From Arcobacter nitrofigilis DSM 7299 (GTDB lineage: Bacteria > Campylobacterota > Campylobacteria > Campylobacterales > Arcobacteraceae): a stretch of 64,000 bases of DNA. The DNA lies in contig NC_014166.1 of assembly GCF_000092245.1 (NCBI RefSeq), positions 620,001 to 684,000 of the forward strand, read 5' to 3'. Of the stretch, positions 46,113-48,621 are shown piece after piece; the first letter of the stretch is position 1; every line of letters begins with the position of its first letter. The notes under the pieces were generated by a model that searched no databases, was not told the origin of the DNA, and worked only from the letters and a program-made list of their open reading frames with translations. Made by a program: the position numbers and the translations under genes.

Positions 46113-46922
46113 TTATAAAGCTCTTTTTTTGTTTATTTTTAACATTAAACTTAGTATAAATAAAATCAACGAAACTACTACAATAGTAGCACCACTTGGT
46201 AAAGATATATAAAATGAGACAAAAAGCCCAACTATTACAGCTAAAACTGCAAAAGATACTGCTAATAAACAAGTTATAAAAAAACTTTTTTCAAATTGCA
46301 TTGCAGAAATTACTGGCATTATCATTAAGGCACCTATTAATAATACTCCAATAATTTTTATGGATAATCCAACTGTAATTGCCACAAGTGAAACTAACAT
46401 ATAATTTAAAAAACTTACATTTATTCCAGAGGCTTTTGCAACTTCTTCATCAAATGCCACAAAAAGTAGTTTTTGATAATTATTGATAATGAAAAGAGCA
46501 GATAAAACTCCAAATATACAAATTGTCCAAATATCTTCTTTTGAAACGGCAACAATTGAACCAAAAAGATAACTAAATAAAGCTACATTAAAAGAGTTTG
46601 AAATTGAAACTATAATAATTGCAAGTGCAAGGGCTGAAGATAAAAATATTGATAAAATAGAATCAGAATATATATTATGGTTTTTTCTTAGGTATTCTAT
46701 AAAAAGTGAAGCTAAAAGAGCTATTATAATTGCACTAAATGTTGTTGAGATTGAAAATAAAAAACCAAGTGCAACACCAAGTAGGGAAATATGAGCTAAA
46801 GAATCAGATAACATAGAGTATCTTCTTACAACTACAAAAGTACCTAAAGTAGGTGCTAAAATTGCTATAAAAATACCTGCTACAAAAGCTCGTATCATAA
46901 AAGCGTATTCAAAAATTTCCAT
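46113..46922 (-). CDS. znuB: Metal ABC transporter permease (ZnuB family)
   Basis: The permease forms the channel of a zinc or manganese importer. The 269-aa protein has about eight helices and the family motif GTFVVVRRYSMLSDSLAH near residue 30. I chose the ATG at 46922 with AAGGAAAT upstream, rather than an ATG at 46946 inside znuC. It is the last gene of znuA-znuC-znuB, read on the minus strand. Zinc is favoured over manganese because of the substrate-binding protein, but this is not decisive. Confidence 0.88.
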   Translation of the reverse strand: MEIFEYAFMIRAFVAGIFIAILAPTLGTFVVVRRYSMLSDSLAHISLLGVALGFLFSISTTFSAIIIALLASLFIEYLRKNHNIYSDSILSIFLSSALALAIIIVSISNSFNVALFSYLFGSIVAVSKEDIWTICIFGVLSALFIINNYQKLLFVAFDEEVAKASGINVSFLNYMLVSLVAITVGLSIKIIGVLLIGALMIMPVISAMQFEKSFFITCLLAVSFAVLAVIVGLFVSFYISLPSGATIVVVSLILFILSLMLKINKKRAL

Positions 46923-46930
46923 ATATTTCC

Positions 46931-47680
46931 TTAGTGATGATGACAAACAATATTAGTGTCAATGCCATATAATTTACTCATTTGTTTATTATTTATTATT
47001 TCATGTGGAGTATGGCAGGATAGAAGAGTTTGGTTAATACATAAAACTCTTTTTATATCATTTACAATCACTCCTAAATCGTGTGTAACAAAAAGTATTG
47101 TGATATTATCTTCTTTATTTAATTTTTTTAATATTTCATAGAATTTTGCTTGAGAATTGGTATCTACACCCGTATTTGGTTCGTCAAGTATTAATAGTTC
47201 TGGATTACTTATAAGTGCTCTAGCTATCATTACTCTTTGTCTTTGACCACCTGAAAGTTCAGAGATTCTTCTATTTCTTAAATCGGTGATTTCAATTTTT
47301 TCCATAATAGATTCAATTTTTTTATAATCATTTTTTGATATTTTTGAAAACAAAGAAGTTTTATAAGCCAATCCAAGATTAATCACCTCTTGTACAGTAA
47401 TAGGGAAACTATTGTCAATTAAAGTTGCTCGTTGTGGCACATATCCAATTTTATAATATTGTTTGAATAAAGATTGTTTGGTATTAAATAATTTAATATC
47501 TGCAACATTAGGACTTATTAGTCCTAATATTATTTTCATTAGGGTGCTTTTGCCACCACCATTAGGACCAATAATGGCAGCATATTCACCCCTTAATATT
47601 TCAAAAGATATATCTTGAAGAATATCTTTATATCTTAGATTTTTTATATCAATTATGATGTCAGAGAATTTTATTGACAA
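46931..47680 (-). CDS. znuC: Metal ABC transporter ATPase (ZnuC family)
   Basis: The 249-aa ATPase has Walker A GPNGGGKSTL near residue 37, signature LSGGQRQR near residue 143, Walker B LLILDEP and the switch His in VTHD. It energises the importer. The start is TTG at 47680, overlapping the 3' end of znuA by 10 nt. The protein ends in CHHH, a possible metal-sensing or metal-binding tail, unusual for the family. It overlaps the upstream limit of znuB. Confidence 0.9.
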   Translation of the reverse strand: MSIKFSDIIIDIKNLRYKDILQDISFEILRGEYAAIIGPNGGGKSTLMKIILGLISPNVADIKLFNTKQSLFKQYYKIGYVPQRATLIDNSFPITVQEVINLGLAYKTSLFSKISKNDYKKIESIMEKIEITDLRNRRISELSGGQRQRVMIARALISNPELLILDEPNTGVDTNSQAKFYEILKKLNKEDNITILFVTHDLGVIVNDIKRVLCINQTLLSCHTPHEIINNKQMSKLYGIDTNIVCHHH

Positions 47681-48540
47681 TTCATTGCATCCTTCAATTT
47701 AGCTAAGTTTTCTGTCATGATAGTAACAAAACCAACATTTTCTTCATTTTGTTTTTCTGTTATATTTTCAACAGGGCTTAGTTCATCTGTTTTAACATTT
47801 GCTTCATCAGCAATTGTTTTTGCGATTTTATCACTTGCAAACTCTTCAAAAAATACTGTATGAATATTTTCTTTTTTTACTATTTTAATAAGTTCGGCAA
47901 TTTGTTTAGCTGATGGTTCTTCATCAGGTGACATACCAGAAATAGAATATTGTGTTATTCCATAATCGTTTGCTAAATACCCAAAAGCATCGTGATTTAC
48001 AATAACTTTTTTATTTTTGCAAGTTTTTAATGTCTGATATTTAGTTTGTAAAGCAGTTATTTCTTTAAGATAAGCATCTGAATTTTTTTCATAACTTTTT
48101 TTATTTGCTGGGTCTTTTTTGATTAAAAGTGATTCAACATTTTTTATCATTTTGATATAGTTATCAAAACTTAACCAATAATGAGGATCATAAACTTTAC
48201 CATCTTCAAACTCTTTGTGGGCTACTAGTTTTACATGTTTGCTCATATCAAATGTTTTATCAGCTATTTCCATTGATTTTACTACTTTTGTACTCCAAGG
48301 TTCCATAACTTTACCACTAGTTATAAATAAATCACTTTTTGATAAAAGTGCCATACTTTTTGGATTTGGTTCAAAGTCATGGGGCTCTGTTCCAAATGGA
48401 ATTAAATTATTTAGAACAACATTTTTCCCACCAACTTCTTTAACTACACTATATAATGGATATATAGTTGTTGTAACTGTTAATTTAGCAAACAAAACTG
48501 ACGATGCTAATATACTTAATACTAAAATTTTCTTAAACAT
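47671..48540 (-). CDS. znuA: Metal-binding ABC substrate-binding protein (ZnuA family)
   Basis: This periplasmic protein captures the metal for the importer. The 289-aa precursor has a signal peptide cleaved near LFA-KL. The metal ligands expected for the cluster A-I family are visible as His in TEPHDFEPN (near residue 57), His in DPHYWLS, His in VNHDAFGYL and an acidic residue later. No His-rich loop of the E. coli ZnuA type is seen. AAAGGAAAAG precedes the ATG. Two palindromes upstream suggest metal-dependent repression. Confidence 0.88.
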   Translation of the reverse strand: MFKKILVLSILASSVLFAKLTVTTTIYPLYSVVKEVGGKNVVLNNLIPFGTEPHDFEPNPKSMALLSKSDLFITSGKVMEPWSTKVVKSMEIADKTFDMSKHVKLVAHKEFEDGKVYDPHYWLSFDNYIKMIKNVESLLIKKDPANKKSYEKNSDAYLKEITALQTKYQTLKTCKNKKVIVNHDAFGYLANDYGITQYSISGMSPDEEPSAKQIAELIKIVKKENIHTVFFEEFASDKIAKTIADEANVKTDELSPVENITEKQNEENVGFVTIMTENLAKLKDAMNCQ

Positions 48541-48554
48541 TCTTTTCCTTTATG

Positions 48555-48571
48555 ATGCAACTGAGTTGCAT
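48555..48571. promoter_or_regulatory. Proximal palindromic operator of the znu operon
   Basis: ATGCAACT and AGTTGCAT form a perfect 8-1-8 dyad, 15 bp upstream of the znuA ATG and just downstream of the predicted start site. A near-identical dyad lies 50 bp away (centre to centre). A Fur-superfamily metal sensor such as Zur is the likely ligand, by inference. Confidence 0.7.
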
Positions 48572-48582
48572 TTGATTTTGGA

Positions 48583-48588
48583 ATCATA
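48583..48588 (-). promoter_or_regulatory. -10 element TATGAT for znuA
   Basis: TATGAT on the minus strand lies between the two dyads. TTGCAT, 16 bp upstream and inside the distal dyad, can serve as -35. Both promoter flanks are thus covered by operators. Confidence 0.5.
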
Positions 48589-48604
48589 CATCCGAATTTC
48601 TTAA

Positions 48605-48621
48605 ATGCAACTTAGTTGCAA
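48605..48621. promoter_or_regulatory. Distal palindromic operator of the znu operon
   Basis: ATGCAACT-T-AGTTGCAA repeats the proximal dyad with one arm mismatch. It overlaps the probable -35 of znuA. It could also affect the small plus-strand gene at 48701. Confidence 0.68.

Follow-up and report, generated by a model that had tools for sequence, protein, structure and literature searches.

Results and Discussion

Twin Dyads at the Promoter of a Metal Importer Operon

The DNA analyzed here, referred to as the window, is a 64,000-nucleotide stretch of the Arcobacter nitrofigilis DSM 7299 genome (contig NC_014166.1, positions 620,001 to 684,000). It carries a znuABC-like operon with two short dyads upstream. 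The features of the locus, in window coordinates, are as follows.

46113..46946, minus strand: znuB-like permease (matches led by AztB, followed by ZnuB, neither reaching its cut-off)
46931..47680, minus strand: znuC-like ATPase (NCBIfam comparison)
47671..48540, minus strand: znuA-like metal-binding protein of an ABC importer (best NCBIfam hits AdcA, MntC, AztC and ZnuA, all below cut-offs)
48556..48570, no strand: box 1, the downstream box, a dyad with the 15-bp core TGCAACTGAGTTGCA
48583..48588, minus strand: predicted znuA -10 hexamer TATGAT, the best -10 candidate, between the boxes
48600..48605, minus strand: TTTAAG, a -35-like element directly behind box 2, resembling the C. jejuni -35 region TTnAAGTnTT
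48606..48620, no strand: box 2, the upstream box, a dyad with the 15-bp core TGCAACTTAGTTGCA, abutting the -35-like element of the znuA promoter

The best NCBIfam hits of the operon included zinc and manganese importers, those shown all falling below cut-off, and the manganese-binding proteins among the znuA hits count against a zinc reading. Upstream of the operon, positions 48555-48571 (ATGCAACTGAGTTGCAT) form a perfect 8-1-8 dyad. Positions 48605-48621 (ATGCAACTTAGTTGCAA) are the same as ATGCAACTGAGTTGCAT at 16 of 17 positions, with the outermost pair broken and the 15-bp core perfect. The two dyads are spaced 50 bp from centre to centre.

In the znuA direction, the order is box 2, TTTAAG (48605-48600), TATGAT (48588-48583), and box 1. 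Exactly 17 nt separate box 2 from the predicted -10 hexamer on its 3' side, and 12 nt separate the hexamer from box 1. Judging from this hexamer, box 1 would begin approximately 6 nt past the znuA transcript start. The layout therefore places box 2 against the -35-like element and box 1 on the predicted transcript start. The C. jejuni -35 region used for comparison is the one given in the accessible text of PMC3824568. The original prediction had described two almost identical 17-bp dyads, 50 bp apart, flanking the znuA -10; the 16/17 match and the perfect 15-bp cores bear out the first part of this description, and the position of the predicted TATGAT between the boxes bears out the second.

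Motif Sites across the A. nitrofigilis Genome

The single contig of the genome (3,192,235 bp) was scanned with the 15-bp core TGCAACTNAGTTGCA. The exact core was found three times, compared to none for the reversed control and 0.007 expected from base composition alone. Allowing one mismatch raised the number genome-wide to only 5, against 0.36 predicted in the same way, and all 5 adjoin zinc-type genes. These sites are the window pair, a second pair at 852163 and 852209, and a single site at 1028782. The second pair, 46 bp apart, is located between the gene of a 121-aa Fur-family protein and a divergent second znuA, which has a His-rich loop. The single site has a hisI-ribA fusion operon on one side and a decayed pyrC on the other, and a weak partner with 3 mismatches lies 45 bp away, at 1028737; among the 3-mismatch sites, only this partner of an exact site was taken further.

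Looser matching was less informative. At 3 mismatches, the pattern fell at 91 places and the reversed pattern at 42, the reversal being a control that alters the dinucleotide make-up. Shuffling the window only was a weak test, since two or more matches with at most 3 mismatches were present in 10 of 100 shuffles. The four 2-mismatch sites of the genome (L011-L014) all fall within reading frames that have no obvious connection to metals, and we discounted them as probably due to chance.

Spare Zinc-Enzyme Genes at the Third Site

The operon at the third site is headed by a gene fusion.

L004:3789-4691: HisI-RibA fusion, duplicating both enzymes; first gene of the boxed operon

Beyond this fusion, the operon includes dksA, an 84-aa treble-clef protein, an 88-aa frame, and DUF1826. 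Its hisI, ribA, and dksA are second copies, with separate genes elsewhere in the genome. HisI, PyrC, QueD, DksA paralogs, and DUF1826 are all named with the Zur regulons of other bacteria in the available part of PMC2770081, whose supplement list covers Bacilli, alpha-, beta-, and gammaproteobacteria, and Cyanobacteria. According to the same part, Zur-regulated DksA paralogs lack the zinc-finger cysteines. Unlike these paralogs, the DksA of the boxed operon keeps four cysteines, which counts against our reading.

A pyrC-like gene lies across the third box (L004:4848-5382, genome approximately 1028.85 kb) and by eye is frameshifted and shortened; a HipA-domain gene (L004:5362-6504) and a HipB-like frame stand right behind it. 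At the pyrC position, a same-genus relative carries an intact 337-aa dihydroorotase (L027:438-1451). The treble-clef protein (DUF2116, L004:3128-3382) scored above the cut-off in its own genome and below it in the one relative tested. It accompanies the box and hisI in several relatives (L091:2238-2531, L094:2597-2890, and L099:2221-2478) and is probably the product of a zinc-starvation gene.

A Compact Fur-Family Protein as the Candidate Regulator

The genome encodes four Fur-family proteins. The candidate regulator is the one of 121 residues, encoded at 851.8 kb, outside the window, and only its gene has boxes in the promoter. None of the nine listed genome sites with at most 2 mismatches is at the other three genes. 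By best NCBIfam hit, the products of two of these genes lean to Helicobacter-type Fur and that of the third to PerR, all below cut-off. The 121-aa protein passed PF01475 (Fur family) with 60.3 bits against a cut-off of 23.1. It gave no hit at E 0.001 to NF008646, the NCBIfam model of E. coli-type Zur (cut-off 167 bits), and is therefore not filed as the equivalog of that model. Its best NCBIfam hits were PerR and Fur models, far below cut-off, and no Zur model was reached. Profile alignment with E. coli Zur gave a probability of 96.5 at 18% identity. In this alignment, a phenylalanine of the 121-aa protein stands opposite a cysteine that we take to be a ligand of E. coli Zur.

The structure was modeled with L166, an 83%-identical relative, as a monomer (pLDDT 88.2, pTM 0.77). 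The predicted winged helix and beta-rich dimerisation domain make up a Fur fold, and a Foldseek search with the model returned Fur, PerR, and Zur structures on top. The C-terminal dimerisation domain of the model has no helix of at least 4 residues. Two CxxC pairs (C86, C89, C117, and C120), a putative structural zinc site, show no variation among 35 close orthologues. The same holds for H81, H83, C94, and E66, which were considered for a regulatory zinc site like that of E. coli Zur; the phenylalanine noted above speaks against a full match to that site. We consider the 121-aa Fur-family protein likely to be the zinc repressor, Zur.

Conservation of the Box in Relatives

Co-occurrence of box and regulator was examined across the order, in 248 genomes, taking E at most 1e-26 as the limit for a close zur orthologue and at most 1 mismatch as that for a box. 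Of the 51 genomes that have such an orthologue, 46 contain at least one box, compared to 50 of the 197 others (Fisher p about 1e-17, uncorrected for relatedness). The reversed control matched in 12 of the 248 genomes. Within this sample, 19 of 22 genomes of the window's own family contained two to ten boxes. The 5 close-zur genomes of 51 that have no box at 1 mismatch count against the association. In the four boxless genomes viewed (L050, L051, L053, and L058, from G197, G224, G039, and G045), the close zur is not beside znuA, and the operator of these genomes may have changed.

No close zur is present in 50 of the boxed genomes; in 32 of these, the box adjoins a distant fur-like gene, a znuA, or a TonB-receptor gene. 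These calls were made mostly by eye, with seven fur-like proteins and two znuA confirmed and G012 called by coordinates. One more genome (G239) is cut off by a contig end. The other 17 have no zinc-gene promoter at the site viewed and look like chance; for G007, G099, G121, and G138, one of two or three sites was viewed. All eight distant box-linked fur-like proteins tested, seven from genomes without a close zur and one from a genome with it, passed the Pfam FUR cut-off.

The surroundings of zur were then compared between loci. For 30 zur loci, the A. nitrofigilis locus included, a box lies beside zur in 24 and a pair in 23. A larger set, sharing genomes with the first, was formed from the best 80 of 149 relatives minus L211, whose zur frame was not found by the script. 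The resulting 79 loci are named records of Arcobacteraceae, Sulfurospirillum, Sulfurovum, Sulfurimonas, and others. In the interval from 300 bp before the zur start to 20 bp after it, 59 of the 79 carry a box with at most 2 mismatches, and 44 have a box pair 40-53 bp apart, while the 20 loci with no upstream box count against the pattern. The remainder of the same loci (447,960 bp) contains 15 sites. When 200 scrambled dyads were run on the 79 upstream regions, a mean of 0.03 loci and a maximum of one were matched. In a phylum-wide search, the exact core was present in 21 of 121 genomes and its reverse in 1, all genomes from this order.

The original prediction had suggested that the dyads may define the motif of this lineage's metal sensor. 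It called for a genome scan near other metal genes and a fur- or zur-type regulator, and named absence of the motif from other metal-related promoters of relatives as the contrary outcome. The scan placed the motif at the second znuA, the Fur-family gene, and the spare zinc-enzyme genes. The relatives gave the opposite of absence, with boxes at zur/znuA, znuCB, TonB receptors, hisI, ribA, queD, and pyrC. These zinc-gene sites, in the genome and in its relatives, support the suggestion as far as sequence can. Further targets in relatives are a third znuA, QueD-like and DUF1007 proteins, a family-5 solute-binding protein, and porins. Five of five boxed TonB receptors tested were confirmed, and targets to which neither Pfam nor NCBIfam assigned a family were identified by eye.

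Individual relatives showed variants of the arrangement. L077:1560-2960, from another family (f10), is a ZnuA with an inserted ZinT zinc-recruitment domain, both above the Pfam cut-off, and has an exact box. An exact box also precedes a family-5 solute-binding protein of the peptide/nickel/metallophore type (L103:1024-2562), which is possibly a zinc-metallophore importer. In family f15 (L111-L117 and L132-L139), a much diverged fur-like gene stands beside znuA and the box upstream is kept. A looser second match falls within the coding region of these loci, approximately 107-122 bp beyond the first, and may be only a coding by-product.

Fixed Promoter Layout at zur Loci

The promoter layout was examined in 42 twin pairs from named zur loci, which are related sequences, read away from zur. 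A znuA-like frame, recognised by a rough pattern, lies downstream in 38 of the 42. On this side, 41 of 42 pairs have TANNNT at a distance of exactly 17 nt from the upstream box, and 37 of 42 have WTWAAG immediately after that box. Read in the zur direction, the same 42 pairs had TANNNT at 17 nt in 6 and WTWAAG in 0. At other loci the layout was weak. A -10-like hexamer was present at offset 17 in 21 of 213 flanks and at offset 16 in 24, compared to 13.1 expected per offset after shuffling; offset 6 was higher, with 31. The box-to--10 layout is thus not general beyond zur loci. Box, spacing, promoter layout, conservation, and gene neighbourhoods can all be read directly from the DNA.

Comparison with Known Zur Systems

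Zur of gammaproteobacteria, Bacilli, actinobacteria, and others likewise combines a Fur-family repressor gene with an inverted-repeat operator, and the known Zur regulons likewise have znuABC and spare zinc-enzyme genes as targets, according to the available sections of PMC2770081 and PMC6103462. The DNA code is different. The E. coli Zur consensus, TRWNAYRWTATAWYRTNWCA in the accessible part of PMC6103462, differs from TGCAACTNAGTTGCA and shows no resemblance to it, in agreement with the original prediction that the sequence is not the classical gammaproteobacterial Zur site. The regulator is 121 aa here and 171 aa in E. coli, the two being 18% identical by profile alignment. A short Fur-fold protein is also found in the marine cyanobacterial zinc sensor PDB 7ne9, the second-ranked Foldseek match (118-residue chain), which at 14% identity is likened to the present regulator by structure alone.

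Promoters with two boxes are themselves not new: according to the available part of PMC6103462, S. coelicolor znuA and B. subtilis yciC each have a Zur box at the -35 region and another at the -10 region. The present arrangement differs from theirs in that the second box is found beyond the -10, where the transcript is predicted to start, and in the 17-nt distance of TANNNT from the first box, seen in 41 of 42 pairs. What differs from known Zur systems is the DNA code, the compact regulator, and the fixed layout.

Among the open-licence matches listed, none described, by title or abstract, a Zur or Zur box for Campylobacterales (Arcobacter, Sulfurospirillum, Sulfurimonas, and relatives). No epsilonproteobacterial Zur site was found in the accessible portions of the reviews PMC6103462 and PMC8000910, and no epsilonproteobacterial Zur motif in those of PMC3087516 or PMC4674564, the latter having a single mention, among its references. 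Searching the literature for the box half-site as literal text gave unrelated papers among the matches listed, as judged from the text available for them.

A Probable Lineage-Specific Zur Operator

The twin dyads are very probably the operator of a lineage-specific Zur, the 121-aa protein, which would repress znuABC when zinc is plentiful. Binding by this protein, zinc as its metal, and repression are what we infer. With plentiful zinc, a dimer of the compact 121-residue Fur-family protein would bind each TGCAACTNAGTTGCA box. The upstream box abuts TTTAAG and ends 17 nt before the predicted -10, the downstream box would cover the transcript start, and the two together would occlude the core promoter. 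When zinc falls, Zur would leave and znuABC would be made. The same Zur would control its own divergent promoter with the second znuA, as well as the operon of spare zinc-enzyme genes.

The boxes might instead bind the 121-aa protein as a sensor of manganese, nickel, or iron, making it a Mur-, Nur-, or Fur-like importer regulator. We regard this as unlikely. Manganese-importer models were also matched by znuA and znuC, the best NCBIfam hits of the regulator are PerR and Fur, and Mur and Nur have the same fold. However, the co-regulated genes are the spare zinc-enzyme set of Zur regulons, and the boxed znuA of one relative (L077) carries a ZinT domain. The genome also holds a better Fur match in a separate protein, L005, with 149.6 bits to the Helicobacter Fur model (below the cut-off of 200).

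It is more improbable still that a regulator from outside the Fur family binds the boxes and the neighbouring fur-like gene is a mere target. The box pattern alone does not name its binder, and five close-zur genomes are without a box at 1 mismatch, but in several families even remote Fur-family genes are preceded by the box, with 8 of 8 tested passing Pfam FUR. A 7-1-7 dyad with RNNNY half-sites, which are given for E. coli Zur in the part of PMC6103462 available, also suits Fur-family proteins. Chance or a coding by-product, with dyads of no regulatory role, was rejected: 10 of 100 window shuffles did hold two or more loose matches, but the rarity of the motif against its genome-wide expectation, the scrambled-dyad test (59 of 79 zur loci against a maximum of 1), and the fixed -10 distance at zur loci leave it next to no probability.

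Returning to the lineage-specific Zur, we tentatively extend the proposal to the whole order, in a form that may well prove too broad. The Campylobacterales could all have inherited a compact Zur from their ancestor, one without the usual dimerisation-domain helix and with its own code, TGCAACTNAGTTGCA. At zur-znuA, operators and core promoter would form one rigid unit (box, WTWAAG, N11, -10, box) clamped by two dimers, and several branches appear to have lost the regulator and the boxes together.

With the motif, the zinc regulon of Campylobacterales can be predicted by a one-line search of a genome. The motif also points to a regulator to which none of the NCBIfam models tried gives a name, and marks small uncharacterised proteins as candidate zinc-starvation genes. 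The fixed box-to--10 distance offers a system for asking how two repressor dimers would block one promoter.
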